Below, in pieces: positions 5,954-37,557 of a stretch of DNA of 64,000 nucleotides. A model generated the notes under the pieces. It saw only the letters and a list, made by a program, of their open reading frames with translations, ran no database searches and had not been told where the DNA came from. Source of the stretch: Streptomyces sp. NBC_00539 (GTDB taxonomy: Bacteria; Actinomycetota; Actinomycetes; Streptomycetales; Streptomycetaceae). A program made the translations under genes and the position numbers. The stretch's first letter is position 1, and each line of letters begins with the position of its first letter. The DNA lies in NCBI RefSeq assembly GCF_036346105.1, contig NZ_CP107811.1, positions 3,106,501-3,170,500 of the forward strand, written 5' to 3'.

Positions 5954-5968
5954 CTGACTATCCGTCAG
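5954..5968. promoter_or_regulatory. CTGACG-N3-CGTCAG operator (ligase/Ltp operon)
   Basis: CTGACTATCCGTCAG matches the palindrome CTGACG-N3-CGTCAG except at one base of the left arm. It sits in the shared divergent promoter, 29 bp upstream of the ligase ATG (5925, minus strand) and 53 bp upstream of the thiolase ATG (6021). Confidence 0.75.
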
Positions 5969-6020
5969 ATTAGCTGTAGCCTTCGCGGCTGTCAGCACTG
6001 GCGCGCACCCGGAGGTGGCG

Positions 6021-7172
6021 ATGGCGGCAACGCTCAAGGACGCTACGGCAATCGTCGGCATCGGCCAGACCGCCTTTGCCAAACGACTGCCGGGCAGCGA
6101 AAAGGAACTGGCCTGCCGCGCGATCCTCGCGGCGCTCGCCGACGCGGGCATCGCACCGGCCGAGGTGGACGCCTTCGCCTCGTACACGATGGAGGAGACC
6201 GACGAGGTGGAGGTCGCCAAGTCCATCGGCGCCGGCGACGTCACCTTCTTCTCCAAGGTCGGCTACGGCGGCGGCGGTTCCTGCGCCACGGTCGGCCACC
6301 TCGCCGCCGCCCTCGCCACCGGCCAGGCCTCCGTCGGCGTCGCCTGGCGCTCGCGCAAGCGCGGCTCGGGACCGCGCCCCTGGAAGAACACGACCGTGCA
6401 GCTGCCCACCCCCGGCCAGTGGACCCGCCCGTTCGGGCTGCTGCGGCCGGCCGACGAGATAGGCATGCTGGCCCGCCGCTACATGCACGAGTACGGGGCC
6501 ACCCGCGACCACCTCTTCAACGTGGCGATGGCCTGCCGCAACCGGGCCAACGAGAACCCCGCCGCCATGATGTACGAGCGGCCGCTGACCCGCGAGATGT
6601 ACATGACCTCCCGCATGATCAGTGAGCCGCTCTGTCTCTTCGACAACTGCCTGGAGACGGACGGGGCGCTGGCCTGCGTCATCGTGTCCGCCGAGCGGGC
6701 GCGGGACTGCCGTCAGAAGCCGGTCTACGTCCACTCCGTCGCGCAGGGCCTGCCCGCGCAGCACCACGGGATGGTCAACTACTGGAACGACGACCCGCTG
6801 TCCGGCCCGGCGTGGACTGCGGCCCGTCACCTGTGGAAGCAGGCCGACTTCGGGCCCGAGGACGTGGACGTGGCCCAGATCTACGACGCGTTCACCCCGC
6901 TGATCCCGCTGTCCCTGGAGGGCTACGGCTTCTGCGGGCGCGGTGAGGGGGCCGCGTTCACCGAGGGCGGGGCACTGGAGATGGGCGGCAGGCTGCCGAT
7001 CAACACCGGCGGGGGCGGCCTGTCGGAGGCGTACGTCCACGGCTTCAACCTGATCAACGAGGGCGTCAAGCAGTTGCGCGGCACCTCGACCGCGCAGGTG
7101 CCGGACGCCGCGACGTGCCTGGTGACGGCGGGCGAAGGCGTCCCGACGTCCGCGATCTTGCTGAGGAGCTGA
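6021..7172 (+). CDS. Lipid-transfer-type thiolase (SCP-x/Ltp family)
   Basis: A 383-residue thiolase-fold protein of the SCP-x thiolase/Ltp group, with ATAIVGIGQTAF at the N-terminus, IYDAFTPLIPLSLEGYGFC in the C-terminal half and NTGGGGLSEAYVHG near the end. The classic thiolase nucleophile motif is not evident around the expected GGGGSC. That fits the Ltp subgroup, whose steroid-catabolic members (Ltp2 with ChsH2) cleave beta-hydroxy acyl-CoA side chains by retro-aldol chemistry together with a DUF35 partner, and such a protein is encoded next. The ATG at 6021 is preferred over the GTG at 6015 because GGAGG (6011-6015) would overlap the latter. Confidence 0.8.
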   Translation: MAATLKDATAIVGIGQTAFAKRLPGSEKELACRAILAALADAGIAPAEVDAFASYTMEETDEVEVAKSIGAGDVTFFSKVGYGGGGSCATVGHLAAALATGQASVGVAWRSRKRGSGPRPWKNTTVQLPTPGQWTRPFGLLRPADEIGMLARRYMHEYGATRDHLFNVAMACRNRANENPAAMMYERPLTREMYMTSRMISEPLCLFDNCLETDGALACVIVSAERARDCRQKPVYVHSVAQGLPAQHHGMVNYWNDDPLSGPAWTAARHLWKQADFGPEDVDVAQIYDAFTPLIPLSLEGYGFCGRGEGAAFTEGGALEMGGRLPINTGGGGLSEAYVHGFNLINEGVKQLRGTSTAQVPDAATCLVTAGEGVPTSAILLRS

Positions 7173-7180
7173 CACCGACC

Positions 7181-7627
7181 ATGACCGCGCCCGCCGAAAA
7201 CCTCCTCCTCCCGGTCCCGGACGAGGACGGGGCCCCGTTCTGGGAGTACGCCGCCCGGGGTGAGCTCCGTATCCAGGCCTGCGCCGACTGCGGCAGGCTC
7301 CGCTTCCCGCCCCGGCCCTGCTGCCCGCACTGCGGGTCGTTCGGCTCCGAGTGGCGGCTGATGAGCGGCCGGGGCCGGATCTGGTCGTTCGTACGGCCGC
7401 ACCCGCCGCTGCTGCCCGCCTACGCGGCGCAGGCCCCGTACAACGTCATCCTCGTGGAGCTGGCGGAGGCGCCGCTGATCCGGCTGGCGGGGAACCTCGT
7501 CACCTCGGCCGACGCCCCGCTGGACTCGGTGGATCCGGCCCGGCTGCGGATCGGGGCGCGGGTACAGGTGGTGTTCACCGATACGGGCGGCACGAGCGTG
7601 CCGCGCTGGGTCCTGGAGCGGCCGTGA
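7181..7627 (+). CDS. DUF35 OB-fold/zinc-ribbon protein
   Basis: A 148-residue protein with an N-terminal rubredoxin-like zinc ribbon (CADC about residues 34-37, CPHC about 48-51) and a C-terminal OB-fold, the standard DUF35 architecture. DUF35 proteins are obligate partners of thiolase-like enzymes, providing acyl-CoA binding and stabilising the active site, as in Ltp2-ChsH2. It starts 8 nt after the thiolase gene and its stop overlaps the next start (GTGA), so the three genes form one operon. Confidence 0.85.
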   Translation: MTAPAENLLLPVPDEDGAPFWEYAARGELRIQACADCGRLRFPPRPCCPHCGSFGSEWRLMSGRGRIWSFVRPHPPLLPAYAAQAPYNVILVELAEAPLIRLAGNLVTSADAPLDSVDPARLRIGARVQVVFTDTGGTSVPRWVLERP

Positions 7628-8400
7628 CGGTACGGGTGGAGCGGGACGGGGCGAGCGGGGTCGCGGTCGTCACCCTGGACCGGGAGCACCGGCACAACGC
7701 GATCGATCTCGCGACGGCCGCCGAACTCGCCGTGGTCTGGCGGGAGTTCCGCTACGACGAGGGTGTACGGGCGGTGGTGCTGACGGGGGCGGGGACGGCC
7801 GCGTTCTGTACGGGCATCGACCGGGGCGTGCAGGTGCCGCAGCCCGCGTCCCCGTACTCGGTGGACGACCCGCTCCTGGCCGTCGGGCCGAAGGCCAACG
7901 ACCTGTGGAAACCGGTGGTCGCGGCCGTCAACGGCATGGCGTGCGGCGGCGCGTTCTACCTGCTGGGCGAGTCGGAGTTCATCGTCGCGTCGTCGTCCGC
8001 GACGTTCTTCGACCCGCACACGACGTACGGGATGGTCAGCGCCTACGAGGCGGTGTACATGGCGCAGCGGATGCCGTTCGGGGAGGTGGCCCGGATGTCC
8101 CTGATGGGCACGGCGGAACGGCTCTCCGCGCGGCGGGCGTACGAGACCGGCCTGGTGTCCGAGCTGGCCGGACCCGGGGAACTCCTGGAGGCGGCCCTGC
8201 GGTCGGCGCGGACCCTGGCCGGTTTTCCGACGGGGGCCGTGCAGGGCACGGTGCGGGCCCTGTGGTCGGCCAAGCAGGCGGCGCTCCGGCAGGCCCTCGA
8301 CCAGGCGCCGGCCCTGATCGCCCTGGGCAACCTGCCGGCGGCCGGGCAGGCCGCCCTCTTCGCCGGCCGCCGGACCTCGCCGGAGTCCCGGATCCGGTAG
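7624..8400 (+). CDS. Enoyl-CoA hydratase/isomerase (crotonase) family protein
   Basis: A 258-residue crotonase-fold protein that starts at a GTG overlapping the DUF35 stop codon by 4 bp. Typical segments are GVAVVTLDREHRHNAID, VVLTGAGTAAFCTGID (oxyanion-hole region) and VAAVNGMACGGAFYLLGESEFIVAS (second oxyanion element). The usual catalytic Glu pair of true hydratases is not obvious: the position after the GGAFYLLG segment reads ATFFDPHTTYGMVS. It may therefore act as an isomerase, hydrolase or C-C hydrolase. It is the third gene of the Ltp operon and part of the proposed regulon. Confidence 0.8.
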   Translation: MTVRVERDGASGVAVVTLDREHRHNAIDLATAAELAVVWREFRYDEGVRAVVLTGAGTAAFCTGIDRGVQVPQPASPYSVDDPLLAVGPKANDLWKPVVAAVNGMACGGAFYLLGESEFIVASSSATFFDPHTTYGMVSAYEAVYMAQRMPFGEVARMSLMGTAERLSARRAYETGLVSELAGPGELLEAALRSARTLAGFPTGAVQGTVRALWSAKQAALRQALDQAPALIALGNLPAAGQAALFAGRRTSPESRIR

Positions 8401-8401
8401 C

Positions 8402-8893: not shown

Positions 8894-8992
8894 GGCCGAC
8901 TCCTCCCCCTGGGCAACGGCGCGCCACGCTACCAGGCCCCCGGACGCCCCACCCGGGGTGCGGGTGCCCGGGGCCGCACATAGCGTCGGGGC

Positions 8993-9538: not shown

Positions 9539-9547
9539 GCTTCCCCC

Positions 9548-10081: not shown

Positions 10082-10137
10082 ACGCGCCGGACCCAGGCGC
10101 GCCGGGCCCAGGTTCCCGGGGCCTGTCACGCGCACGG

Positions 10138-11155: not shown

Positions 11156-11233
11156 GGGGTCCATCCTGTCACTCCCGGTGCCGTGCGCGACCCGGCGGGG
11201 CCGGGACCGGACCCGGGGACGGGCCGGACCGGC

Positions 11234-14577: not shown

Positions 14578-14885
14578 CGCCCGGTTCCTTCCGTCGTCCA
14601 CCCCGTGTCCGCCCCGCTCGTACCGGCCATGATGGGTCCGTGAAGGGGTCCGGGGCCTGTTGACGAGACTATTCGGGGGATTACGCCACGATACGGGTGG
14701 GCCAGGGACGGGCCGCGACCGGTATCGGCAGGACAGGGCGGCCCGGGACGGAATCCGGCCCGGAAAGCGGCCGAAAAGCATCGGCGGCGGGGTGCGCGGG
14801 CGCCGATGGCCCAGGTCCGGGGCCGGGTAACCCCATTTGCAGGCGGCCGAATAGCGCGCCCATCACCCCTCGGTAAGCTGACGGC
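14578..14885. other. Divergent intergenic region, VOC gene and TetR gene
   Basis: About 310 bp with no supported gene. TTGACG (14660-14665) followed by TACGCC about 16 nt later is a possible promoter. CTGACGGCATGACAG (14878-14892) overlaps the TetR start codon and keeps the left arm and 4 of 6 bases of the right arm of the CTGACG-N3-CGTCAG operator, so it may be a weak autoregulatory site. Confidence 0.4.
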
Positions 14886-15533
14886 ATGACAGGACAAGTA
14901 CGCACCGTCGACGGGCGTGTCGCCGGCCGGCGCGGCCAGGCGACGCGGCAGAAGCTGCTCGACTGCCTCGGCGAGATGCTCAGCTCCTCGCCGTACCGCG
15001 ACGTCAAGGTGATCGACGTCGCGCGCAAGGCCGGTACCTCCCCCGCGACCTTCTACCAGTACTTCCCGGACGTCGAAGGTGCCGTCCTGGAGATCGCCGA
15101 GGAAATGGCCACGGAGGGCGCGCAGTTGACGGCGCTCGTCGAGGGCCGCAACTGGGTGGGCAAGGCCGGCTGGGCCGCGGCCGAAGAACTGGTCGAGGGC
15201 TTCCTGGACTTCTGGCGCCGCAACGACGCGATCCTGCGGGTCGTCGACCTCGGCGCGGCGGAGGGCGACAAGCGGTTCTACAAGATCCGCATGAAGATCC
15301 TGAACTCCGTCACCAACTCCCTCACGGAGTCGATGAAGGAACTCCAGGCCAAGGGCAGGGTCGACAAGGACCTCAGCCCGGCCGCGATGGCCGGTTCGCT
15401 GGTCGCGATGCTGGCCGCGGTCGCCTCGCACCAGAAGGGGTTCCAGACCTGGGGTGTGAAGCAGGCCGAACTCAAGCCGAACCTCGCGCTCCTCGTGCAC
15501 CTGGGCATCACCGGCAAGAAGCCGACCAAGTAA
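14886..15533 (+). CDS. TetR-family transcriptional regulator
   Basis: A 215-residue protein with an N-terminal TetR helix-turn-helix (residues about 14-62; VIDVARKAGTSPATFYQYFPD contains the recognition helix) and a mostly alpha-helical ligand domain containing RVVDLGAAEGDKRFYKIRMKI. It opens the long catabolic stretch and is the only TetR-type regulator in the window, so it is my candidate for the protein binding the CTGACG-N3-CGTCAG sites. TetR regulators of acyl-CoA pathways usually respond to an acyl-CoA intermediate. Direct binding is not shown by the sequence, and its own promoter carries only a degenerate site. Confidence 0.9.
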   Translation: MTGQVRTVDGRVAGRRGQATRQKLLDCLGEMLSSSPYRDVKVIDVARKAGTSPATFYQYFPDVEGAVLEIAEEMATEGAQLTALVEGRNWVGKAGWAAAEELVEGFLDFWRRNDAILRVVDLGAAEGDKRFYKIRMKILNSVTNSLTESMKELQAKGRVDKDLSPAAMAGSLVAMLAAVASHQKGFQTWGVKQAELKPNLALLVHLGITGKKPTK

Positions 15534-15608: not shown

Positions 15609-16085
15609 TCAGCGGCGGTCCAGGCGGAACAGCCGGATCTCGCGCTCGATCCGCGCCTGGTACGTCGCGTACGGCGGCCAGAACGCCAGGGCCTCCCGCC
15701 AGGCCGCCGCACGCTCCTCGCCGTGGAGCAGGCGGGCCCGTACGGCGATGTCCCGGCCGTGCCAACTCACCTGCGCGTCGGGGTGCCTGAGCAGGTTCGC
15801 GGTCCAGGCCGGGTGGCCGGGGCGGCCGAAGTTGGAGCCGATCAGCAGCCAGCTCGCGCCGTCGTCCAGCGGCATGCAGGCGAGTGGTGTGGTGCGCGGC
15901 TCGCCCGTCTTGGCCCCCTTGGCGGTGAGGATCACGCCGGGGAGCATCTGCGCGCTGAGGATGACCTTGCCCCGGGTGAGCCGGTGCACCGCCTTGTCCA
16001 TGGCGGGGATGACGTGCGGTGCGATCCTGGCGAACAGCAGGGTCGAGGAGACCTTCTGCATCAGGCGGACTCCGACGGCGGCCAT
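15609..16085 (-). CDS. Ddn-like F420-dependent nitroreductase-family protein
   Basis: A 158-residue split beta-barrel protein of the deazaflavin-dependent (DUF385/Ddn) family, recognised from VILTAKGAKTGEPRTTPLACMPLDDGASWLLIGSNFGRPGHPAWTANLLRHPDAQV. Such proteins use F420H2 to reduce unsaturated substrates or quinones. Its ATG overlaps the stop codon of the upstream acyl-CoA dehydrogenase gene by one base (TGATG), so the two are co-transcribed and it probably supplies a reductive step in the same pathway. The substrate is unknown. Confidence 0.85.
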   Translation of the reverse strand: MAAVGVRLMQKVSSTLLFARIAPHVIPAMDKAVHRLTRGKVILSAQMLPGVILTAKGAKTGEPRTTPLACMPLDDGASWLLIGSNFGRPGHPAWTANLLRHPDAQVSWHGRDIAVRARLLHGEERAAAWREALAFWPPYATYQARIEREIRLFRLDRR

Positions 16086-17317
16086 CAGACGGCCATCCTC
16101 TCCGAGGTCGTGTCCCGGGCCGCCTCCCGGGCCGCCGGGAAGAGGCCGGCGCGCTGCGCGGCGTGCCCCCGGAGCCGGTGGGCCGGCCCGAAGAGCAGTT
16201 CGTCGGCCGCCGCGCGCTTGAAGTAGAGGTGCGCGTCGTGCTCCCAGGTGAAGCCGATGCCGCCGTGCAGCTGGATGGCCTCGCCCGAGGTCAGCCGCAG
16301 CGCCTCCAGCGCCTGGGCGAGGGCGAGTCCGCCCTGGTCCGGGTCCCAGGCCGCGTAGTACGCGGCGGAGCGGGCCGCCTGGACCTGTACGTAGAGGTCC
16401 GCGAGCCGGTGCTTGACGGCCTGGAAGGAGCCGACCGCACGGCCGAACTGCTCGCGCTCGCGTACGTACTCCACCGTGCGGGCCAGCGCTCGGCCCGCCG
16501 CGCCGACCGCCTCGGTGGCGAGCAGGGTGGCGGCGCTCCGGCCGGTCGCGGCGAGCGCCCCGGACACCCCGCCGCCACCGTCACCGCCGTCACCGCCGCC
16601 GTCACCGCCCAGCAGCTCGGCTGCCACGTCCCGCAGCTGGACCCGGCCCTGGGGACGGGTCTCGTCGAGCGTGGCCTGCCGGGTGCGTACGAGGCCGGGC
16701 GCGTCGTCGCGCACCAGGAAGAGCAGGGTGCGGCTGCGGGCGAAGCCGCCGGTGTGCGCGGCGACCAGCAGCAGGCCGGCGCTGTGCCCGTCCAGCACCT
16801 GCGCGGCCTCCCCGTACAGCCGCCAGCCGCCGTCCTCGCCGGCCCGGGCCTGCACCCCGCCGGCGCGGCCGCCCCCGGACCACTCGCCGGGGGTGTTGTC
16901 GCCGGTCAGCGCGAGGGCGGTGGCCAGGGCCGTACCGGGTACGGCGAGCGCGGCGGTCAGGGTTCCGGCGGCGAGCGGGGGCAGCAGCGCCGCGCGCTGG
17001 GCGGGCGTCCCGAGGGCGCCGATCAGCGGCGCGACGAGCCCGGCGGTGGCGAGCAGCGGGGAGGGCAGCAGCACGCGTCCGGTCTCCTCGCAGGCCAGCG
17101 CCAGGTCGGCGGGCGTGCAGCCGACTCCCCCGTACTCCTCGGCGATGGCGGTACCCGGCAGCCCCAGCTGTCGCGAGAGCTGCTGCCACAGCTCACGGTC
17201 GTATCCGGCGGAGGTGCGGACGGCGGCCTTGACCTCGTCCGGACCGCAGCGTTTGCCCAGGATCTCGCGCAGGGTGCGGCGCATCTCGTCCTGCTCCGCG
17301 GTGAAGGCGGCATCCAT
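16085..17317 (-). CDS. Acyl-CoA dehydrogenase family protein
   Basis: 410 residues. N-terminal helical domain, then a beta domain interrupted by a Gly/Asp-rich insert (GGDGGGDGGDGGGG, about residues 237-250), then the C-terminal FAD-binding helical domain with REREQFGRAVGSFQAVKHRLAD and QLHGGIGFTWEHDAHLYFKRA. It lacks the YEGTxxIQR active-site Glu motif of classical FadE enzymes. It resembles one subunit type of the mycobacterial heteromeric steroid-side-chain dehydrogenases. The ATG at 17317 is chosen for the AGGAGG 9 nt upstream. It leads an operon with the Ddn-like gene and has an operator 53-67 bp upstream. Confidence 0.88.
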   Translation of the reverse strand: MDAAFTAEQDEMRRTLREILGKRCGPDEVKAAVRTSAGYDRELWQQLSRQLGLPGTAIAEEYGGVGCTPADLALACEETGRVLLPSPLLATAGLVAPLIGALGTPAQRAALLPPLAAGTLTAALAVPGTALATALALTGDNTPGEWSGGGRAGGVQARAGEDGGWRLYGEAAQVLDGHSAGLLLVAAHTGGFARSRTLLFLVRDDAPGLVRTRQATLDETRPQGRVQLRDVAAELLGGDGGGDGGDGGGGVSGALAATGRSAATLLATEAVGAAGRALARTVEYVREREQFGRAVGSFQAVKHRLADLYVQVQAARSAAYYAAWDPDQGGLALAQALEALRLTSGEAIQLHGGIGFTWEHDAHLYFKRAAADELLFGPAHRLRGHAAQRAGLFPAAREAARDTTSERMAV

Positions 17318-17369: not shown

Positions 17370-17384
17370 CTGACGGGCCGTCAT
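17370..17384. promoter_or_regulatory. CTGACG-N3-CGTCAG operator (acyl-CoA dehydrogenase side)
   Basis: CTGACGGGCCGTCAT has a perfect left arm and one mismatch in the last base of the right arm. It lies 53 bp upstream of the minus-strand dehydrogenase start at 17317. Confidence 0.75.
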
Positions 17385-17498: not shown

Positions 17499-17513
17499 CT
17501 GACGGTACGTCAG
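17499..17513. promoter_or_regulatory. CTGACG-N3-CGTCAG operator (Ltp thiolase side)
   Basis: CTGACGGTACGTCAG is a perfect match. It ends 15 bp before the ATG at 17529. A TACGGT -10 box (17517-17522) exactly 6 nt before that ATG suggests a leaderless promoter, so the operator would cover the spacer between -35 and -10. Confidence 0.85.
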
Positions 17514-17528: not shown

Positions 17529-18719
17529 ATGCCTGGACCCCTCTCCGCCGCCTCCGCACCCCGCCGCAGGGTCGCGGTCGTCGGCGTCGCGCTCTCGGAC
17601 TGCGGCCGGGTCGACGGCCCCACCCCCTACGCCCTGCACGCCCAGGCCGCCCGCCGGGCGCTCGCCGACTCGGGCCTGGACCGCTCCCTCATCGACGGCC
17701 TTGCCTCGGCGGGCCTCGGCACCCTCGCCCCCGTCGAGGTGGCCGAGTACCTCGGGCTGCGCCCCACCTGGGTCGACTCCACCTCCGTCGGCGGCTCCAC
17801 CTGGGAAGTCATGGCGGCCCACGCCGCCGACGCCATCGCCGCGGGCCACGCCAACGCAGTCCTGCTGGTCTACGGCTCCACCGCCCGCGCCGACGTCAAG
17901 GCCCGCCGGCGCACCTCGAACCTCTCCTTCGGGGCCCGGGGCCCGCTCCAGTTCGAGGTCCCGTACGGCCACACCCTCGTCGCGAAGTACGCCATGGCCG
18001 CACGCCGCCACATGCACGAGTACGGCACCACGGCGGAGCAGCTCGCCGCCGTGGCCGTCCAGGCGCGGGCGAACGCCGCCACCAACCCCGACGCGATGTA
18101 CCGGGACCCGATCACGGTGGAGGACGTGCTGTCCGCCGAGATGATCGCGGACCCGTTCACGAAGCTGCACTGCTGCATCCGCTCCGACGGCGGCTGCGCG
18201 GTGCTGCTCGCGGCGGAGGACTACGTACCGGACACCGCGAAGGCGCCCGTCTGGATCCTGGGTTCGGGCACCTCCGTCTCCCACACCACCATGTCGGAGT
18301 GGGAGGACTTCACCGTCTCCCCGGCGGCGGTCTCGGGCCGCCTGGCCTTCGAACGGGCCGGTCTGGGCCCGGCGGACGTGGATCTGGCGGAGATCTACGA
18401 CGCCTTCACGTACATGACCCTGGTGACCCTGGAGGACCTCGGCTTCTGCGCCAAGGGGGAGGGCGGGGCCTTCGTGGAGAAGGGCCGGCTGCTGCGGGAC
18501 GGCGAACTGCCCGTCAACACCGACGGTGGCGGGCTCTCGGCCTGCCACCCCGGGATGCGGGGCCTGTTCCTGCTGGTGGAGGCGGTCCGCCAGCTCCGCG
18601 GCGAGGCCGGCCCCGACCGCCAGGTCACCAAGCGGAACGGCCGACTGCCCGAGGTGGCCCTGGCCTCGGGCACGGGCGGCTGGTTCTGCTCCTCGGGCAC
18701 CGTCATCCTCGGGCGGTAG
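17529..18719 (+). CDS. Second Ltp/SCP-x-type thiolase
   Basis: A 396-residue paralog of the product at 6021. It shares RRHMHEYGTTAEQLAAVAVQARANA, EIYDAFTYMTLVTLEDLGFC and NTDGGGLSACHPGMRG. As in the first copy, the canonical thiolase Cys is not evident: the expected region reads DSTSVGGSTWEVMAA. A retro-aldolase or acyl-transfer role is therefore more likely than classical thiolysis. There is no DUF35 gene directly next to it; the nearest is at 21204-21638, under its own operator. The operator and leaderless promoter just upstream place it in the proposed regulon. Confidence 0.8.
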   Translation: MPGPLSAASAPRRRVAVVGVALSDCGRVDGPTPYALHAQAARRALADSGLDRSLIDGLASAGLGTLAPVEVAEYLGLRPTWVDSTSVGGSTWEVMAAHAADAIAAGHANAVLLVYGSTARADVKARRRTSNLSFGARGPLQFEVPYGHTLVAKYAMAARRHMHEYGTTAEQLAAVAVQARANAATNPDAMYRDPITVEDVLSAEMIADPFTKLHCCIRSDGGCAVLLAAEDYVPDTAKAPVWILGSGTSVSHTTMSEWEDFTVSPAAVSGRLAFERAGLGPADVDLAEIYDAFTYMTLVTLEDLGFCAKGEGGAFVEKGRLLRDGELPVNTDGGGLSACHPGMRGLFLLVEAVRQLRGEAGPDRQVTKRNGRLPEVALASGTGGWFCSSGTVILGR

Positions 18720-22109: not shown

Positions 22110-22124
22110 CTGACGGAACGTCAG
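22110..22124. promoter_or_regulatory. CTGACG-N3-CGTCAG operator (DoxX-DUF35 / monooxygenase)
   Basis: CTGACGGAACGTCAG is a perfect match. It lies 22 bp upstream of the DoxX-like ATG (22087, minus strand) and 117 bp upstream of the flavin monooxygenase ATG (22242), so it more directly covers the DoxX promoter. Confidence 0.85.
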
Positions 22125-23530: not shown

Positions 23531-23569
23531 CTGACGGCGTGTCAGTTCAGTAATCTGACTATGCGTCAG
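23531..23569. promoter_or_regulatory. Two CTGACG-N3-CGTCAG operators in tandem
   Basis: CTGACGGCGTGTCAG (23531-23545) and CTGACTATGCGTCAG (23555-23569) each deviate by one base from the palindrome. Their centres are 24 bp apart, roughly two helical turns, which would favour cooperative binding. They lie 45-83 bp upstream of the ADP-forming ligase ATG at 23614. Confidence 0.8.
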
Positions 23570-28201: not shown

Positions 28202-28216
28202 CTGACGCACCGTCAG
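28202..28216. promoter_or_regulatory. CTGACG-N3-CGTCAG operator (flavin reductase / VOC)
   Basis: CTGACGCACCGTCAG is a perfect match. It lies 17 bp upstream of the flavin reductase ATG at 28234 and about 180 bp upstream of the VOC start, so it most directly controls the reductase. Confidence 0.85.
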
Positions 28217-28233: not shown

Positions 28234-28866
28234 ATGGGACACGCAGGGATGGCGGCCACCGTCGTCCGATACCTCAGGTCAGTCGGCTCCCCCACCTCCG
28301 CCGCGCCGGAGCCGGATCCGCTGTTCGACGCCGCCCTGCCGCGTCCCGACCTGCGGGCCGTCCGGGAGGACGAGCGGGCGCCGGTCGCCCCCGCCGAGTT
28401 CCGGGCCGTCCTCGGGAACTTCGCCAGCGGGGTCACCGTCATCACCGCCCCGGCCGTCGAGGGCGCGGACGGGCCGGCCGGCTTCGCGTGCCAGTCCTTC
28501 GCCTCGCTGTCCCTGGACCCGCCGCTGGTCACCTTCATGGTGGCCCGTACGTCGACCACCTGGCCCCGGATCGCCCGCGCGGGGGTGTTCTGCGTCAACA
28601 TCCTGGGCGCCGAACAGGGGTCGCTGTGCCGGTCGTTCGCTGTCAGCGGCGCGGACAAGTTCGCCGGCGTCGTCCACCGCCCGTCCCCCGCGACGGGGTC
28701 GCCGCAGCTGGACGCCGTGCCCGCCTGGATCGACTGCCGGATCCACGCCGTCCACACGGGCGGGGACCACCTCATCGTGGTCGGCCGCGTCGAGGCCCTG
28801 GGCGCGGCCGGCGAAGGCGACCCGCTCCTCTTCCACCAGGGCAGGTTCGGCCGCTTCACACCGTGA
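28234..28866 (+). CDS. HsaB-like flavin reductase
   Basis: About 210 residues. After a variable N-terminal extension of roughly 55 residues comes a flavin reductase domain: FRAVLGNFASGVTVITAP, GFACQSFASLSLDPPLVTFMV, FCVNILGAEQG, DKFAGVVHRPSPATGSPQL and HTGGDHLIVVGRVEAL. This pattern closely resembles HsaB, which supplies reduced FMN to the 3-HSA hydroxylase HsaA in steroid catabolism. No HsaA-type hydroxylase is in the window, so the oxygenase partner is unknown. The exact start is uncertain (ATG 28234 or 28249). Confidence 0.82.
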   Translation: MGHAGMAATVVRYLRSVGSPTSAAPEPDPLFDAALPRPDLRAVREDERAPVAPAEFRAVLGNFASGVTVITAPAVEGADGPAGFACQSFASLSLDPPLVTFMVARTSTTWPRIARAGVFCVNILGAEQGSLCRSFAVSGADKFAGVVHRPSPATGSPQLDAVPAWIDCRIHAVHTGGDHLIVVGRVEALGAAGEGDPLLFHQGRFGRFTP

Positions 28867-28987: not shown

Positions 28988-30055
28988 TCAAAAGGTCAGC
29001 ACCCCGCGCGCCACGCGCCCGTGCCGCGCGTCGTCCACCGCCTTCGCGAAGTCCTCCACCGGGTAGACCTCCGTCACCAGCTCGTCCAGCAGCAGCTTCC
29101 CCTGCCGGTACAGCTCGGCGTACAGGGCCGTGTCGCGCTGCGGCCGGGAGGACCCGTACCGGCACCCCATGATCGTCTTGTCCAGGTACAGGGACGACAC
29201 CTGGAAGGAGGCCTCCTCCTTGGAGCCCGGCACGCCCAGCAGGACCGCCTGCCCGTGCCGGTCGAGGAGGTCGATCGCCTGCCGGATCAGCCGTACGTGA
29301 CCCACGCACTCGAAGGCGTGGTCGGCGCCGGTCGGCAGGATCTCGCGGATCGCCGCCGAGGTGTCCGCGGCGGCGGAGGCGTCGATGAAGTGGGTGGCCC
29401 CGAACTGCCGGGCCACCGCCTCCTTCGCCGGGTTGGCGTCCACCGCGACGATGGTGGCGGCCCCCGCGATCCGGGCGCCCTGGAGCACGTTCAGCCCGAT
29501 GCCGCCGGCGCCGATCACGACCACCGACTCGCCGTGGTCCACCCGCGCCCGGTTCAGTACCGCCCCCACCCCGGTCAGGACCCCGCACCCGATCAGCGCG
29601 GCCGAGGTGGCCGGGATGTCCTTCGGGATCTTCACGGCCTGCACGGCCTTGACGATCGTCCGCTCCGCGAACGCCGAGTTGGAGGCGAACTGGAACAGGG
29701 GCGTCCCGCCGCGCGAGAAGGGCTGTCCCGGCATTCCGATGGCCTTGCGGCACATGGTGGGCCGGCCCCGGTCGCAGTCCGCGCACGCCCCGCAGTTGGC
29801 GAGGGTGGACAGCGAGACGTGGTCCCCGGCCTCCACGTGGGTGACCCCGGCGCCCACGGCCTCGACCACCCCCGCCCCCTCGTGCCCCAGCACCACCGGC
29901 GCCGGGAAGGGGATGGTCCCGTCGATCACCGAGAGGTCGCTGTGGCACAGCCCGGCCGCCGATACCGCGACCAGCACCTCCCCCGGCCCCGGGCCGCGGA
30001 TCTCCAGATCGTCGACCACCTGGGCCTGCTTGCCGTCGAACACGACGCCTCGCAT
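28988..30055 (-). CDS. Zinc-dependent alcohol dehydrogenase (MDR)
   Basis: 355 residues of the class III-like medium-chain dehydrogenase group. Catalytic-zinc ligands are Cys37 (AAGLCHSD) and His58 (GHEGAGVVEAVG). The structural-zinc Cys quartet is in NCGACADCDRGRPTMC, and the NAD-binding motif in VVIGAGGIGLNVLQ. It would oxidise a primary or secondary alcohol intermediate to an aldehyde or ketone. It is the last gene of an SDR - acyl-CoA dehydrogenase - MDR operon, starting 4 nt after the dehydrogenase stop codon. Confidence 0.9.
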   Translation of the reverse strand: MRGVVFDGKQAQVVDDLEIRGPGPGEVLVAVSAAGLCHSDLSVIDGTIPFPAPVVLGHEGAGVVEAVGAGVTHVEAGDHVSLSTLANCGACADCDRGRPTMCRKAIGMPGQPFSRGGTPLFQFASNSAFAERTIVKAVQAVKIPKDIPATSAALIGCGVLTGVGAVLNRARVDHGESVVVIGAGGIGLNVLQGARIAGAATIVAVDANPAKEAVARQFGATHFIDASAAADTSAAIREILPTGADHAFECVGHVRLIRQAIDLLDRHGQAVLLGVPGSKEEASFQVSSLYLDKTIMGCRYGSSRPQRDTALYAELYRQGKLLLDELVTEVYPVEDFAKAVDDARHGRVARGVLTF

Positions 30056-30059
30056 GTCG

Positions 30060-31259
30060 TCACCGCGTCTCTCTGGGCAGGCCGAGCACGCGCTCGGCGA
30101 TGATGTTCCGCTGGATCTCGTCCGAACCGCCGTAGATGGTGTCGGCCCGGCTGAACAGGAACAGGCGCTGCTCCTCGTCGAGCCCGTTCTCGTACGGGCT
30201 CTCCCCGCCCCAGTCCGCCGGTCCGACGGTGGCCGCCGCGCCCCGCACCGCCACCGCCAGCTCGCCGAGCCGCCGGTGCCAGCCGCCCCACAGCAGCTTC
30301 GCGACGCTCGGCGCGCCCTGGTCGCCGCTGCCGCCCAGGGTGCGCAGGGCGTTCCAGCGCATGGTGCGCAGCTCGGCCCACTGCCGTACCAGCCGCTCGT
30401 GCAGTACGGGGTCGGCTGCTCCGGAGGCGGCGTGGGCGGCCAGGACCCGTTCCAGTTCGGCGGCGAAGCCGATCTGCTGGACGAGGGTGGAGACGCCGCG
30501 TTCCAGGGCGAGCAGGCCCATGGCCACGGTCCAGCCGTCGCCCTCGGCGCCGACGGTCTCGGCGGCCACCGCCCCGTCGAAGAACACCTCGTTGAACTCG
30601 CTGGTGCCGGTGAGCTGGCGGATGGGCCGGACCTCGATGCGGCCGGGCTGGTCCATCGGCACCAGCAGGAAGGTCAGCCCCCGGTGGCGGCGGGAGCCGG
30701 GTTCGGTGCGGGCCAGGACGAAGCACCAGTCGGCGTCCCGGGCGAGGGAGGTCCAGATCTTCTGCCCGGTGATGCGGTGGCGCCCGTCGGCCGGGTCGCG
30801 GACGGCCGCCGTACGGATCCCGGCGAGGTCGGATCCGGCGCCCGGCTCGCTGTACCCCTGGCACCACAGTTCCTCGCCGCGGGCGATGCCCGGCAGGTAG
30901 CGGTCCTGCTGCCGCCGGGACCCGTGGGCGATCAGGGTGGGCGCGAGGAGGTTCTCGCCGATGTGGCCGACCCGCCCGGGGGCGCGCAGCGCGGCGTACT
31001 CCTCCGCCCACACCACCTGCCCGGTCAGGGAGAGCCGGCGCTGCCCGTAGGCACCGTCGGGGACCTCCCAGCCCTGGCCGATCCAGCCGCCGCGGCCCAG
31101 CTCCCGCTCCCAGGCGCGGCGGGCCCCGACCTCCTCGTGTTCGCTGCCGGGGCCGCCGAGCCCGCGGGCGTGCGCGTACGGGCCCACGAGGTGCTCCCGC
31201 AGCCACGACCGGGCGCGGCCGCGCAGTTCCTCGTCCTCGGGCCCGAAGCCGAAGTCCAT
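30060..31259 (-). CDS. Acyl-CoA dehydrogenase (FadE family)
   Basis: 399 residues with the full FadE fold: LWCQGYSEPGAGSDLAGIRTAAV (FAD/substrate site), ITGQKIWTSLARDADWCFVLART and the C-terminal TIYGGSDEIQRNIIAERVLGLP. The Glu of the classical YEG motif is replaced by Gly (IYGGS), so the catalytic base must lie elsewhere or be in a partner subunit. The sequence resembles the large subunits of mycobacterial heteromeric steroid dehydrogenases. Second gene of the SDR operon, with a 10-bp gap after the SDR gene. Confidence 0.9.
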   Translation of the reverse strand: MDFGFGPEDEELRGRARSWLREHLVGPYAHARGLGGPGSEHEEVGARRAWERELGRGGWIGQGWEVPDGAYGQRRLSLTGQVVWAEEYAALRAPGRVGHIGENLLAPTLIAHGSRRQQDRYLPGIARGEELWCQGYSEPGAGSDLAGIRTAAVRDPADGRHRITGQKIWTSLARDADWCFVLARTEPGSRRHRGLTFLLVPMDQPGRIEVRPIRQLTGTSEFNEVFFDGAVAAETVGAEGDGWTVAMGLLALERGVSTLVQQIGFAAELERVLAAHAASGAADPVLHERLVRQWAELRTMRWNALRTLGGSGDQGAPSVAKLLWGGWHRRLGELAVAVRGAAATVGPADWGGESPYENGLDEEQRLFLFSRADTIYGGSDEIQRNIIAERVLGLPRETR

Positions 31260-31269
31260 GGGCTCCCCC

Positions 31270-32181
31270 TCACGCGTTGGGGCGGTCCTTGGCGGCCGCC
31301 GCCTTGGCCATGGCCTCCAGCTGCGCGAGCATCGGCATCGGGTCGGTGCCCACCGTCCCGGGCAGGAAGTCGGCGATCTTCTCGGGCGTCCAGGAGCCTT
31401 CGGCGTACGCGGCGCGCAGTTCGCGCGGCTGCGCCCACACGGCGATCTTCGGTCCGGCGATGGTGTACACCTGCCCGGTGATCCCCTCGGTCTTCGCCCG
31501 GTCGCTGAGCAGGTAGGTGACGAGCGCCGCGACGTCCTCGGGCTCGCCGATCTCCTTGAGCTCCATGGGTACGCCCGCGGACATCCGGGTCCGGGCCACA
31601 GGTGCGACGGCGTTGGCGGTGACCCCGTACTTGGCCAGGCCCAGGGCCGCCGAGCGGACGAGGGAGATGATCCCGCCCTTGGCCGCGCTGTAGTTGGCCT
31701 GGGCGACCGAGCCCTGGTGGTTGCCGCTGGTGAAGCCTATGAGCGTGCCGGATCCCTGCTTGCGCATGACGGCGGAGGCGGCCCGGAAGACGGTGAAGGT
31801 TCCTTTGAGGTGGGTGGCGACCACGGGGTCCCACTCCTGCTCGGACATGTTGAACAGCATCCGCTCGCGCAGGATGCCGGCGACGCAGACGACTCCGTCG
31901 ACGCGCCCGTAGCGGGCGAGGGCGGTGTCGACGATGCGCTGTCCGCCCTCCATGGTGGAGATGTCGTCGGCGACGGCGACGGCCTCGCCGCCCGCGGTGA
32001 GGATCTCCTTGACCACGGATTCGGCGATCTCGCTGGTGGGCTCGCCGCCCTCGATGCCCACGCCGTAGTCGTTGACGACGACCTTGGCCCCTTCGGCGGC
32101 CGCGGCGAGTGCCACGGCCCGCCCGATGCCCCGGCCCGCCCCGGTGACGGCGATGACCTTGCCTGCCAGGAAGTTCCCCAC
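31270..32181 (-). CDS. Short-chain dehydrogenase/reductase
   Basis: 303 residues. The N-terminal TGAGRGIGR cofactor motif, the NDYG segment and the catalytic Ser/YxxxK (SGNHQGSVAQANYSAAKGG) are present, with a C-terminal extension of about 60 residues beyond the usual 250-aa SDR length. Members with such a tail act as hydroxyacyl-CoA dehydrogenases in steroid and fatty acid breakdown. GTG start with an AAAGGGG SD. First gene of a three-gene operon, 22 bp downstream of an operator. Confidence 0.9.
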   Translation of the reverse strand: MGNFLAGKVIAVTGAGRGIGRAVALAAAAEGAKVVVNDYGVGIEGGEPTSEIAESVVKEILTAGGEAVAVADDISTMEGGQRIVDTALARYGRVDGVVCVAGILRERMLFNMSEQEWDPVVATHLKGTFTVFRAASAVMRKQGSGTLIGFTSGNHQGSVAQANYSAAKGGIISLVRSAALGLAKYGVTANAVAPVARTRMSAGVPMELKEIGEPEDVAALVTYLLSDRAKTEGITGQVYTIAGPKIAVWAQPRELRAAYAEGSWTPEKIADFLPGTVGTDPMPMLAQLEAMAKAAAAKDRPNA

Positions 32182-32203: not shown

Positions 32204-32218
32204 CTGACGGACCGTTAG
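32204..32218. promoter_or_regulatory. CTGACG-N3-CGTCAG operator (SDR operon / cyclase)
   Basis: CTGACGGACCGTTAG differs at one base of the right arm. It lies between the divergent SDR operon (start 32181) and the cyclase gene (start 32271). It overlaps a possible cyclase -10 box, TTAGAT/TAGATT (32215-32221). Confidence 0.75.
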
Positions 32219-32270: not shown

Positions 32271-33197
32271 ATGACCTTGCCGGCCGAGTTCCACGACATC
32301 GCCAGGCGCGTCAACAACTGGGGCCGGTGGGGCGCCGAGGACGAGAGGGGCACCTTGAACCTGGTCACCGACGCGGTGGTGCGCGCCGCGGCCGCCGAGG
32401 TCCGCACGGGCCGGCGGATCCCGCTGGCCCTGCCCCTCAAGGAGGACGGGGTGCAGGCCGGCCTGATCCCCGGCCGGATCAACCCCCTGCACACCATGGT
32501 GCAGATCAACCAGGAGCTCTTCGGCCCCGGCACGGTGGCCTGCAACGACGACGCCGTGACGATGGGGCTCCAGGCCGGCACGCACTGGGACGCCCTCACC
32601 CACGTCTCGCACTCGGGACGGATCTACAACGGCCGTCCGGCCTCCACGGTCACCGCCCACTCCCGCGCCGAGTTCGGCGGCATCGACAAGGCCGGTCCCG
32701 TCGTCTCCCGGGGCGTCCTGCTCGACGTGGCCCGCGCCAAGGGCCTGGACCGGCTGCCGGGCGGCCACGCGGTGACCCCCGAGGACCTCGCGCAGGCGGA
32801 GGAGTTCGGCCGGGTCACGGTCCGGGCCGGTGACGTCGTCCTGGTCCGGACGGGCCAGATCCAGGTGTACCTCGCGGGCGACAAGCACGGCTACGGGTTC
32901 CCCTCGCCGGGCCTGTCGGTCCGCACCCCCGAGTGGTTCCACGCACGGGACGTGGCGGCGGTCGCCAACGACACCCTGACCTTCGAGATCTTCCCGCCGG
33001 AGATCGAGAACCTGTGGCTGCCGGTGCACGCGCTCGACCTGGTCGAGATGGGCATGCTCCAGGGCCAGAACTGGAATCTCGAAAAGTTGTCCACAGCCTG
33101 TGCAGAAGAGGGCCGCTACGCGTTCTGGCTCTCCGCGATGCCCGAACCGTTCGTCGGCGGCACCGGCACCCCGGTGGCACCGGTCGCCGTCCTGTGA
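32271..33197 (+). CDS. Cyclase/KynB-family metal-dependent hydrolase
   Basis: 308 residues of the putative cyclase (PF04199) family. The metal-binding QAGTHWDALTHVSHSGRIYNG segment (about residues 101-120) contains the GTHxD motif. Family members include kynurenine formamidase and lactone or amide hydrolases. The substrate in this cluster is unknown; ring opening or hydrolysis of a lactone is a reasonable guess. It is divergent from the SDR operon with a shared operator. Confidence 0.85.
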   Translation: MTLPAEFHDIARRVNNWGRWGAEDERGTLNLVTDAVVRAAAAEVRTGRRIPLALPLKEDGVQAGLIPGRINPLHTMVQINQELFGPGTVACNDDAVTMGLQAGTHWDALTHVSHSGRIYNGRPASTVTAHSRAEFGGIDKAGPVVSRGVLLDVARAKGLDRLPGGHAVTPEDLAQAEEFGRVTVRAGDVVLVRTGQIQVYLAGDKHGYGFPSPGLSVRTPEWFHARDVAAVANDTLTFEIFPPEIENLWLPVHALDLVEMGMLQGQNWNLEKLSTACAEEGRYAFWLSAMPEPFVGGTGTPVAPVAVL

Positions 33198-34172: not shown

Positions 34173-35093
34173 TCAGCCGACGGCGCCCAGCAGGTCCGCC
34201 GCCAGCACCTCCTCCGCCTGCGCAGCCGTGCGCCACTGCTCCGCGCGGACCCAGGCCCGCTTGAGGTGCAGGTGCACGTCCGCCTCCCAGGTGAAGCCCA
34301 TCCCGCCGTACACCTGGAGGCAGTCGCGGGCCCCCCGCACGGCCGCCTCGTCGGCCAGCAGCTTCGCCGCCGCGATCTCGGCGACGTCGCCCGTCACGGC
34401 CGCCGCGTACACCGCGGTACGGGCCACCTCCGCCCGCACCAGCATGCCCGCGCACAGGTGTTTGACCGCCTGGAACGCCCCGATCGGCTGCCCGAACTGC
34501 TCACGCCGGCGCGCGTGGTCCACCGCCAGCTCCACGGTCCGCAGGGCGCTGCCGACCTGGAGCGCGGCCGTCAGCAGCGCACCCTCGTCGCGGTAGGGAG
34601 CCGGGTCGGGGCCCGGATCCGGGTGGCGGCCCGCCACCCGGTGCAGCGGTGTCAGCGGGTCCACCGAGCGCACCGGCTCGCCTTCGGGCGGCGCGGACGC
34701 CCCGAGGACCGCGTCCGCCTCCCCCAGGTGGGCCACCAGCGGCCCGCCCAGGTCGAACGCCGTCACCACCGTCGTCCCGGACGCGGCGCCCGGGACCACC
34801 CCGGCCGCCAGGTGCGTGGCCACCAGCGGCCCCGGCAGCAGGGCCCGCCCCGCCTCCTCGAAGACCAGGGCGGCCTCCGGGAGCCCGAGCCCGACCCCGC
34901 CGTCGGACTCCGGCAGGCGCAGCGCGAAGAACCCGGCCTCGCCGAGCTCCCGCCACAGCCGCCGGTCCACCGCGACGCCCGCCTCCACCGACGCCCGCAG
35001 CGCCTCGCGCCCGTACCGGCCCGCCAGCAGGTCCCGCACGCCCGCCCGCAGGGCGCGCTGTTCCCCGGTCGGCTGGAAGTCCACCGCGCTCAC
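34173..35093 (-). CDS. Acyl-CoA dehydrogenase, short subunit
   Basis: A 306-residue acyl-CoA dehydrogenase-like protein, clearly shorter than the usual 380-400 because the middle beta domain is reduced. The C-terminal domain is intact: HARRREQFGQPIGAFQAVKHLCAGM and QVYGGMGFTWEADVHLHLKRAW. It starts at a GTG overlapping the stop of the 384-residue dehydrogenase gene by 4 bp (GTGA). Adjacent, coupled, unequal dehydrogenase subunits are the hallmark of the alpha2beta2 enzymes (ChsE1-ChsE2 type) acting on steroid side chains or rings. Confidence 0.88.
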   Translation of the reverse strand: MSAVDFQPTGEQRALRAGVRDLLAGRYGREALRASVEAGVAVDRRLWRELGEAGFFALRLPESDGGVGLGLPEAALVFEEAGRALLPGPLVATHLAAGVVPGAASGTTVVTAFDLGGPLVAHLGEADAVLGASAPPEGEPVRSVDPLTPLHRVAGRHPDPGPDPAPYRDEGALLTAALQVGSALRTVELAVDHARRREQFGQPIGAFQAVKHLCAGMLVRAEVARTAVYAAAVTGDVAEIAAAKLLADEAAVRGARDCLQVYGGMGFTWEADVHLHLKRAWVRAEQWRTAAQAEEVLAADLLGAVG

Positions 35094-36244
35094 CGCCCCT
35101 TCGGCAGGCCGAGGACGCGCTCGGCGACGATGTTCCGCTGGATCTGGGAGGTGCCCGCGGCGATGGTGTACGACAGGGACGAGAGCCGGTCCAGGACCCA
35201 CTCCTCGTCCAGCGCGAGCGAGCCGGCGCCGAGCACCTGGGCCGCGGCGTCGTACAGCTCCTGCCGCGCGTGGGAGTACGCCAGCTTGAAGACGCTGCCA
35301 CCTGTGCCGGGGACGCCGCCCGAGCGCTCCGATTCGCTGACGTTCCACTGCGTCAGCCTCCAGAGGGCGCCGAGTTCCCCGTGGAGCCGTCCGAGGGTGC
35401 GGCGTAGGACGGGATCGTCCCAGCGCCCGTTTTCCTTCGCGGTCCGGGCCAGCAGGGCGAGCGTACGGCGGCAGGCCACCACCTCCCCCACGAAGGCGGT
35501 GCCCCGCTCGAAGGACAGCGTCACCATCGTGACCCGCCAGCCGTCGTTCTCCGCCCCCACCCGGTTCGCCGCCGGCACCCGCACCTCGTCCAGGAACACC
35601 TCCGCGAACTCGGCCGACCCGGCGAGCGTGCGCAGCGGCCGTACGGTGATCCCGGGAGCGTCCATCGGCATGGCCAGCCAGGTGATCCCACGGTGCTTCG
35701 GCGCGCCGGGGTCGGTCCGCACCAGCAGCTCGCACCAGTCGGCGACCTCCGCGTGGGAGGTCCAGATCTTCGCGCCCGTGACCACGTAGTCGTCGCCGTC
35801 GCGGACCGCGCGGGTCCGCAGCGACGCCAGGTCGGAGCCGGCGTCCGGCTCGCTGAACCCCTGGCACCACATCTCGTCACCGCGCAGCACCGGCGGCAGC
35901 CAGCGCGCCCGCTGCGCGGCGGTGCCCTCGGCGGCGATGGTGGGCCCGGCGTGCAGGAGCCCGACGAAGTTCGCGCCGACGTACGGGGCCCCCGCCCGCT
36001 CGGTCTCCTCCAGGAAGATCAGGTGCTGGGTGGGGGTCGCGCCGCGCCCGCCCGCGTCGAGGGGCCAGTGCAGGCCCGCGTACCCGGCTTCGAACAGCCG
36101 GCGCTGCCAGCCGGCGTCGTAGGCGCGGCGGGCCGGCCAGTCGTCGGGGGAGGGCCTCGGGGGCAGTGCGGGCAGCTCCTTGGCGAGCCACTCCCGCAGC
36201 CGGGCGCGGAACTCCTGCTCCTCGTCGGTGTAGGTGAGGTCCAC
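35090..36244 (-). CDS. Acyl-CoA dehydrogenase, long subunit
   Basis: 384 residues with the complete fold: MWCQGFSEPDAGSDLASLRTRAV, VTGAKIWTSHAEVADWCELLVRTD and the C-terminal TIAAGTSQIQRNIVAERVLGLP. The canonical Glu before GTSQIQR is Ala (IAAGTS). It probably pairs with the short subunit encoded next. The GTG start shares its last base with the first base of the amidohydrolase stop codon, so it is the middle gene of an amidohydrolase - long subunit - short subunit operon. Confidence 0.9.
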   Translation of the reverse strand: MDLTYTDEEQEFRARLREWLAKELPALPPRPSPDDWPARRAYDAGWQRRLFEAGYAGLHWPLDAGGRGATPTQHLIFLEETERAGAPYVGANFVGLLHAGPTIAAEGTAAQRARWLPPVLRGDEMWCQGFSEPDAGSDLASLRTRAVRDGDDYVVTGAKIWTSHAEVADWCELLVRTDPGAPKHRGITWLAMPMDAPGITVRPLRTLAGSAEFAEVFLDEVRVPAANRVGAENDGWRVTMVTLSFERGTAFVGEVVACRRTLALLARTAKENGRWDDPVLRRTLGRLHGELGALWRLTQWNVSESERSGGVPGTGGSVFKLAYSHARQELYDAAAQVLGAGSLALDEEWVLDRLSSLSYTIAAGTSQIQRNIVAERVLGLPKGR

Positions 36245-37440
36245 TACCGGTCCAGGTCCAGGCCCAGCATGCGGATGGCGTTGCCGCGCATCAGCTTGTA
36301 GACGGTCTCGTCGTCGAGCCCCTTCACGTGGTCGAGGGCGACGTCCTTGGTGTGCGGGAAGGTCGAGTCCACGTGCGGGTAGTCGGTCTCGAAGGTCGCG
36401 TTGTCGCGTCCGACGACGTCGAGCGAGGCGATGCCGTGCTTGTCGCGGAAGAAGCAGCAGAACATCTGCCGGTAGTAGTACGTGGACGGCGGCTCGGGGA
36501 TCAGGTCGCGGACGCCGCCCCAGGCGCGGTGTTCGCGCCACACGTCGTCGGCGCGTTCCAGGGCGTACGGGATCCAGCCCATCTGGCCTTCGCTGTAGGC
36601 GAGCTTGAGCGCCGGGAACCTCACCAGCACCCCGCTGAACAGGAAGTCCATCATCGAGGCCATCGCGTTGTTGAAGCTGAGGGAGGCCTGGACGGCGGGC
36701 GGTGCGTCGGGGGAGGCGGCGGGCATCTGCGAGGAGGACCCGATGTGCATGTTGACGACGGTGCCGGTGTCCTGGCAGACGGCGAAGAAGGGGTCCCAGT
36801 ACCCGGAGTGGATCGAAGGCAGCCCGAGGTAGGTCGGGATCTCGGAGAAGGTCACGGCGCGCACGCCCCGCGCGGCGTTGCGCCGGACCTCCGCCACCGC
36901 GAGGTCGATGTCCCACAGGGGGATGATGCAGAGCGGGATCAGCCGGCCGCCGCTGTCGCCGCACCACTCCTGCACCATCCAGTCGTTGTAGGCGCGCACG
37001 CAGGCGAGGGCCACCTCCTTGTCGTGCGCCTCGGCGAAGGTCTGGCCGCAGAAGCGGGGGAAGGTGGGGAAGCACAGGGAGGCCTCGACGTGGTTGAGGT
37101 CCATGTCGGCGAGGCGCGCCTTCGGATCCCAGCAACCCGGCCGCATCTCCTCCCTCGTGATCCCCTCCAGGGTCATGTCGTCGCGGTCGAAGCCGACGGC
37201 GGCGATGTTGCGCTTGTACGGGAACTTGAGGTCCTCGTAGATCCACCAGTCGGTCGGGGGTCCGTCGGGGTCCATGGAGATCACGTACTTGCCGCCGGTG
37301 TAGACCAGCTCGCCGATCCCGGCGGTCAGTGCCTTGGGTCCGCGGTCGCGGTATTTGGCCGGCAGCCACACGTCGAAGAGGTGCGCGGGTTCGATCACGT
37401 GGTCGTCGACGCTGATGATCCGAGGCAGTTCCGTGTCCAT
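36244..37440 (-). CDS. Amidohydrolase-family (ACMSD-like) metal hydrolase/decarboxylase
   Basis: 398 residues. ISVDDHVIEPAHLFDVWLP at the N-terminus replaces the usual HxH of the TIM-barrel amidohydrolase_2 family with D-D-H, as in many actinobacterial members. The later ETDYPHVDSTFPHTKD segment contains conserved Asp/His residues, and SGVLVRFPALKLAYSEGQMGWIPYALERAD is typical of the family. Hydrolase, hydratase or decarboxylase chemistry is possible. First gene of the operon with the two dehydrogenase subunits, 26 bp downstream of an operator. Confidence 0.88.
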   Translation of the reverse strand: MDTELPRIISVDDHVIEPAHLFDVWLPAKYRDRGPKALTAGIGELVYTGGKYVISMDPDGPPTDWWIYEDLKFPYKRNIAAVGFDRDDMTLEGITREEMRPGCWDPKARLADMDLNHVEASLCFPTFPRFCGQTFAEAHDKEVALACVRAYNDWMVQEWCGDSGGRLIPLCIIPLWDIDLAVAEVRRNAARGVRAVTFSEIPTYLGLPSIHSGYWDPFFAVCQDTGTVVNMHIGSSSQMPAASPDAPPAVQASLSFNNAMASMMDFLFSGVLVRFPALKLAYSEGQMGWIPYALERADDVWREHRAWGGVRDLIPEPPSTYYYRQMFCCFFRDKHGIASLDVVGRDNATFETDYPHVDSTFPHTKDVALDHVKGLDDETVYKLMRGNAIRMLGLDLDR

Positions 37441-37465
37441 GATGTCCGGTGTCCCCTCGCCCTAT

Positions 37466-37480
37466 CTGATGGACCGTCAG
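37466..37480. promoter_or_regulatory. CTGACG-N3-CGTCAG operator (amidohydrolase operon)
   Basis: CTGATGGACCGTCAG has one mismatch in the left arm. It lies 25 bp upstream of the minus-strand amidohydrolase ATG (37440). Confidence 0.75.
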
Positions 37481-37542
37481 AAACAAGCTAGCCCCGCCAC
37501 CTCTGGACCGGCAAGCGGCGGGGCCCTACGCTCTCGCCAGAT

Positions 37543-37557
37543 CTGACACATCGTCAG
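37543..37557. promoter_or_regulatory. CTGACG-N3-CGTCAG operator (second ligase)
   Basis: CTGACACATCGTCAG has one mismatch (A for G) in the left arm. It lies 19 bp upstream of the acyl-CoA ligase ATG (37577). With the site at 37466 it forms a divergent pair of operators, one per gene. Confidence 0.75.

Follow-up and report, generated by a model that had tools for sequence, protein, structure and literature searches.

Results

The Operator and the Genes That It Precedes

The window analysed here is a 64-kb stretch of the 7.5-Mb genome of Streptomyces sp. NBC_00539 (G000; C1:3106501-3170500), in which a series of catabolic promoters share the palindrome CTGACG-N3-CGTCAG; we propose this palindrome as the operator of a TetR-type regulator whose gene (tetR, 14886..15533, + strand; PF19352, TetR_C_38) adjoins kbpA and afsK. 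A first-pass annotation of the same DNA had listed ten such sites, and all ten are present where it placed them with 0-1 mismatch, our limit for a good match: 17499, 22110, and 28202 are exact, and the remaining seven deviate at one position. Each of the ten is intergenic, although intergenic DNA makes up only 14.9% of the window, and they lie about 16-68 bp before the nearest start codon (23531 and 23555 being measured to the ATG at 23614), much as the 15-70 bp given for most of them in that annotation; the gene calls come from a simple script, so that some of these distances may be wrong. Altogether, the 64 kb hold 11 matches with at most one mismatch, against a mean of 0.53 and a largest value of 3 in 100 shuffles and, in an independent Markov control, a mean of 0.43 and a maximum of 3 in 100 runs. 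At up to three mismatches there was no enrichment in the window (52 found, 69 expected), so the signal is confined to the good matches. The eleventh match, absent from the earlier list, has one mismatch and falls within a called gene (57605-57619); it is probably due to chance.

The first site (5954..5968, one mismatch) lies between a FadD3-family acyl-CoA ligase gene (4255..5925, - strand; 802.5 bits, cut-off 657) and a thiolase operon (6015..7172, + strand; a lipid-transfer-type enzyme whose best PDB sequence match is 6ok1), with a ChsH2-like protein and an enoyl-CoA hydratase encoded at 7181..8400 (+ strand). The site at 17370..17384 (one mismatch) precedes an operon for an acyl-CoA dehydrogenase (IpdE2-like, below cut-off) and an F420H2-dependent quinone reductase-like protein (15609..17317, - strand), and the exact site at 17499..17513 stands 16 bp before another thiolase gene (17529..18719, + strand). 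Farther on, the exact operator at 22110..22124 precedes an operon for a 139-aa protein without a Pfam match and a ChsH2-like protein (21204..22054, - strand), and a pair of operators with one mismatch each (23531..23545 and 23555..23569) precedes the gene of an ADP-forming acyl-CoA ligase (23614..25848, + strand). A flavin reductase-like gene (28249..28866, + strand) follows the exact site at 28202..28216; opposite this operator, inside the cluster, a second KbpA-like glyoxalase-type protein is encoded at 27231-28022 (132 bits, the KbpA cut-off being 250). The site at 32204..32218 (one mismatch) separates an operon for a zinc dehydrogenase, an acyl-CoA dehydrogenase, and a short-chain dehydrogenase/reductase (SDR; 28988..32181, - strand) from a putative cyclase gene (32271..33197, + strand). 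The last two sites, each with one mismatch, lie 26 bp before an amidohydrolase_2 operon encoding two acyl-CoA dehydrogenases and a DitZ/PtmU3-like amidohydrolase (operator 37466..37480; genes 34173..37440, - strand) and 20 bp before an acyl-CoA ligase gene (operator 37543..37557; gene 37577..39226, + strand).

Operators in the Rest of the Genome and in Related Streptomyces

Across the whole genome the operators are not spread at random: there are 91 matches with at most one mismatch as compared with 21 for the reversed pattern, and seven of the 13 exact copies fall within 57 kb. The regulon is not contained in a single window, as had first been thought, since five more operators (C1:3077473, 3095586, 3095647, 3097510, and 3104907) lie up to 29 kb upstream of it, making fifteen between C1:3077473 and 3144057, and distant sites stand before similar enzymes. 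These fifteen and the tetR site described below, 16 sites in all, were taken with their reverse strands to build a sequence model; the majority consensus of the 32 strands is TATCTGACGGnCCGTCAGATA, its arms and flanks being TATCTGACG-N3-CGTCAGATA. The palindrome as first defined is kept, with A/T-rich flanks to be added to it: the A/T share of the flanks is 0.67 at the 13 exact host sites, versus 0.41 in a sample from a family outside the order (f15) and 0.42 in a sample from Streptomyces genomes with few sites. A scan with this matrix gave ten further places in the genome beyond the training sites. Eight of the 11 outer sites (seven matrix places and one exact match) were examined, of which five lie 16-51 bp before genes for an AMP-ligase, two luciferase-like enzymes, an acyl-CoA dehydrogenase, and a ChsH2-type protein, and three do not fit the regulon.

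Four further Streptomyces that bear the cluster (G001, G104, G052, and G014) have operators at orthologous promoters as well. In an ungapped comparison of nine promoters, 425 of 432 arm positions (98%) were identical to the host, as against 53 of 108 spacer positions (49%) and 47% of the flanks, a comparison biased in favor of the arms by the preselection of sites with at most one mismatch. This preselection does not account for the particular deviations that are retained, namely GACT at 5954, GTCAT at 17370, and GTTAG at 32204, the last preserved in all five genomes compared; it creates the sequence TTAGATT, which resembles a -10 element and overlaps the operator. A strain with the TetR protein and no cluster (G072) has only one operator match in 80 kb, and that one is inside a gene.

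The Proposed Regulator

The 215-aa protein encoded at 14886 has the all-helical TetR fold with a C-terminal domain, matching PF00440 (TetR_N) with 26.2 bits (cut-off 24) and PF19352 with 242.1 bits (cut-off 23.9), and it is the sole PF19352 protein of the genome. Of the 93 TetR_N matches genome-wide, it is the only one in the cluster or within about 49 kb. Among those of the region's proteins that were scanned against Pfam, the other DNA-binding regulators are AfsR and an AraC-type protein at -19043, for which three of the five other strains have only 35-38% matches. Three neighbors exceed their NCBIfam cut-offs: AfsR (-1405 to 1744) and, beside tetR, AfsK (11234-13648; 1496.1 bits, cut-off 1300) and KbpA (13765-14601; 278.4 bits, cut-off 250).

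Most of the 80 named relatives of this TetR that were retained are from Streptomyces. A degenerate operator with two mismatches, absent from the earlier list, lies over the tetR start codon (14878..14892) and is conserved in this genus, being present in 30 of 31 Streptomyces loci, and its exact 20-mer occurs in 62 of 72 named loci. Among 19 loci with a called tetR, a site with at most one mismatch lies 23-51 bp before the start in five, overlaps it in one, and is 100 bp off in one (the called start of L094 is well upstream of the conserved part). On two IMG/VR contigs (L171 and L172) we also noticed a segment 44% identical to TetR residues 14-86.

Co-occurrence of Regulator, Operator, and Cluster

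We compared 294 genomes of the window's order and 296 of its class, 268 of the latter lying outside the order. Within the order, PF19352 is present in 293 of the 294 genomes and an exact operator in 291; G002, which alone is without the TetR, is also without a site. Seven order genomes (G172, G227, G166, G100, G276, G208, and G245) hold 30-58 exact sites, far over the median. Outside the order, with PF19352 presence taken at E < 1e-9, an exact operator with A/T flanks occurs in 13 of 21 PF19352 genomes and 3 of 247 others (Fisher 2e-14, for genomes that are not independent). The figures were also taken without f15, because the copies sampled there are without strong A/T flanks and are in many cases off promoters; the counts are then 9 of 16 and 3 of 247. 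The operator was seen where no TetR was found in G433 (68% complete), G451, and G558, and PF19352 is present with no A/T-flanked exact site in G305, G314, G323, G347, G388, G398, G417, and G515. In G323, a one-mismatch site (L086) lies about 29-38 bp before an amidohydrolase gene whose product is 63% identical to that at 36244, despite a PF19352 frame that bears a TGA.

In Actinomadura and Frankia-type genomes similar enzymes adjoin tetR, with operators. At the Actinomadura loci L179 and L186, tetR is next to an ADP-forming ligase and an amidohydrolase; both loci have operators 77 and 11 bp before the amidohydrolase, and L186 has a third one, over the called start of the ligase.

As a marker for the cluster itself we took the amidohydrolase L019:7168-8385 (E < 1e-150), which is found in 189 of the 294 order genomes (weak matches in G169 and G025 were counted as cluster-less). 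The median number of exact sites is 14 with the marker versus 7 without it, and, within genus g1, 14 in 187 marker genomes versus 6 in the 87 others; exact sites sampled in seven low-count genomes are mostly without A/T flanks. Cluster genes adjoin 55 of the 72 named Streptomyces-type loci, and each of these 55 has 1-8 sites. Twelve of the 17 first scored as cluster-less have no site, and three of the five that do (L180, L182, and L242) turn out to carry cluster genes; the short contigs L227 and L235 hold one. The first picture of the regulon must be widened on two further points: the operator is found again in much of Streptomyces, and cluster-less strains keep the TetR too.

Enzymes and Likely Substrate

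The description of the targets as acyl-CoA-type is close, though it does not hold literally for each gene: the neighbors are acyl-CoA ligases, thiolases, acyl-CoA dehydrogenases, ChsH2-like proteins, an amidohydrolase, a flavin reductase, an SDR, and a cyclase. The wider target set also includes SDRs, two amidohydrolases, and luciferase-like enzymes, among them a member of the F420-dependent TIGR03619 family. Adjoining one operator-bearing SDR gene, though farther from it in some relatives, is a gene (L018:1873-4413) for a radical SAM protein that has a CofH/MqnC-type domain and that we take to be FbiC-like.

The amidohydrolase at 36244-37440 matches DitZ (E 2.2e-56) and PtmU3 (E 1.3e-39), as does the second one (2e-54 and 2e-34), and for the amidohydrolase at 36244-37440 the metal-ligand motifs D-x-H, HIG, E, and DYPH align by eye. 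In diterpenoid biosynthesis, PtmU3 is described as acting on CoA-ligated substrates as a diiron hydroxylase (PMC7782822), and by analogy with that account the cluster amidohydrolases may use PtmU3/AibH2 diiron chemistry. Their sequences suggest beta-hydroxylation of a ring-bearing acyl-CoA, which would point to a terpenoid- or steroid-like substrate; the targets together suggest CoA-thioester catabolism of such a compound.

Discussion

Taken together, these data suggest that the palindrome is the operator of the TetR protein at 14886-15533, which would repress genes for the catabolism of a ring-type acid and be released by a CoA thioester; we put the probability of this reading at about 0.85. 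A TetR dimer would bind CTGACG-N3-CGTCAG at divergent and single promoters and block transcription of some fifteen genes or operons, whose products would activate the acid (CoA ligases), oxidize it (luciferase-like and amidohydrolase-fold enzymes, acyl-CoA dehydrogenases), and cleave it (thiolase and ChsH2-like proteins), until a CoA thioester made from the substrate, probably by binding the helical C-terminal domain, releases the repressor. Judging from sequence comparisons, this TetR very probably reads the operator, because the two co-occur across the class when the operator is taken with its A/T flanks. The first-pass annotation had pointed to the same protein, and its choice is supported by this co-occurrence, by the sites at some tetR promoters, and by the lack of any other TetR_N protein within about 49 kb.

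Several observations weigh against this reading. The tetR promoter of Streptomyces has just the site with two mismatches, and only 7 of the 19 called-tetR loci have a better one at or within 100 bp of the start. At E ≤ 1 the matrix found 13 of the 16 sites from which it was made, and their E-values are weak (the best being 0.02). The 87 cluster-negative genomes of the genus keep a median of 6 exact sites, and the TetR is retained in the cluster-less Streptomyces G072. Two genomes of the order (G040 and G169) and two outside it (G314 and G323) have the TetR or its PF19352 domain and no exact site, the tetR frame of G323 holding a TGA, and six f20 genomes have only 1-9 exact sites. The f15 genomes are also hard to accommodate: all five (G305, G327, G344, G359, and G374; e.g. 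L139-L154) carry 109-218 exact copies per 4.3-5.5 Mb, against 0-1 of the reversed pattern, many of them away from promoters.

That tetR is kept in nearly the whole order, with or without the cluster marker, could also mean that it is a mere conserved neighbor tied to AfsK/KbpA or to sporulation, in keeping with the sporulation-upregulated SCO4421 (PMC3878966), and that an unlinked regulator, of the TetR or another family, reads the operator; with 93 TetR_N matches in the genome there are candidates enough. We consider this improbable in view of the class-wide co-occurrence of PF19352 and operator, of the Actinomadura loci in which tetR adjoins the same enzymes, and of some f14, f16, and f20 loci that have operators immediately in front of tetR and in which the search, within its limits, gave no relative of AfsK or KbpA. 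It is very improbable that the TetR acts as an activator or dual regulator of the cluster rather than as a classical repressor: the sites are doubled at several promoters, and some are far from one start of a divergent gene pair, but most lie so close to the start codon (about 16-68 bp) that a bound dimer would normally block the polymerase, and the -10-like TTAGATT at 32204, if it is one, is overlapped by the operator.

Because the f15 sites are often off promoters, the bare palindrome can have another role. Of 16 copies sampled there, seven are intergenic and five of these lie between convergent genes, as does one of the 16 sampled in low-count Streptomyces (L155), so that one might think of 3'-end or structural DNA elements. 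A role as gene-end marks in f15 is only half supported: in 12 of 16 cases a long frame on one strand or the other ends at a TGA within the site, the TGAC control giving 31% per strand. For the cluster there is almost no chance of this, since its sites stand before genes, in many cases where two of them diverge, and the host's exact copies have the A/T-rich flanks that the f15 and low-count samples lack. Some f15 genomes do have flanked copies, which number 21 in G374, 5 in G344, 2 in G327, 1 in G359, and none in G305.

The genes of AfsR and AfsK, two regulators of antibiotic production, are within the catabolic locus. An exact operator (L019:8402-8426; window -1593) stands 174 bp before afsR and 22 bp from an amidohydrolase gene on its other side, and an operator recurs there in the four other cluster-bearing Streptomyces examined. 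Because an operator precedes afsR in five Streptomyces and tetR adjoins afsK and kbpA, one may wonder whether the TetR ties the acyl-CoA state of a ring-degrading pathway to AfsK-AfsR-AfsS antibiotic control in many Streptomyces, although we regard this as unlikely. More generally, the results supply an apparently undescribed operator, the regulator proposed for it, and a list of targets; this TetR is present in 293 of 294 sampled genomes of the order, and the operator marks a catabolic locus (in 189 of the 294 by the marker) whose substrate can be searched for with a promoter reporter. The regulon appears to be real and not previously described; we found no published account of a CTGACG-N3-CGTCAG operator in the open-access literature.

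Among known systems, KstR2 has a regulon that includes FadD3 and Ipd genes, and the cluster here has a FadD3-family ligase and IpdE2-like dehydrogenases. The KstR2 motif, AnCAAGnnCTTGnT, is at none of the ten sites; its three one-mismatch matches in the window, against 0.18 expected, each fall within a called gene (4547, 53519, and 62816). The KstR motif TnnAACnnGTTnnA is likewise at none of the ten, with five one-mismatch matches in the window against 1.99 expected (2 of 100 shuffles reach five), which agrees with the initial view that the regulon is distinct from both. The mode of action would nevertheless be the same as that of KstR, the Mycobacterium steroid regulator, described as a TetR repressor whose short palindrome stands in the promoter of its own gene and in those of many catabolic genes; its large regulon, of lipid type, came to light through comparable footprinting (PMC1995591). 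By description, our system also resembles the Rv0767c-type motif X regulon, for which a palindrome near catabolic promoters, a TetR regulator, and suggested autoregulation are reported (PMC6593523).

As for the protein itself, the acyl-CoA-binding TetR proteins FasR, FadR, and DesT are 12-16% identical to it, among the matches listed. EthR of M. tuberculosis, which regulates a neighboring ethA-type monooxygenase, has the same fold with low identity. In Streptomyces coelicolor the counterpart by neighborhood is SCO4421, a TetR gene near afsK that is reported to be upregulated at sporulation and to give no mutant phenotype; the part of the report at hand gives no targets or operator for it (PMC3878966). 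The regulon proposed here may explain that mutant: if S. coelicolor lacks the cluster, there would be little for the protein to regulate. The cluster presumably has little room there, to go by the S. coelicolor gene numbering.

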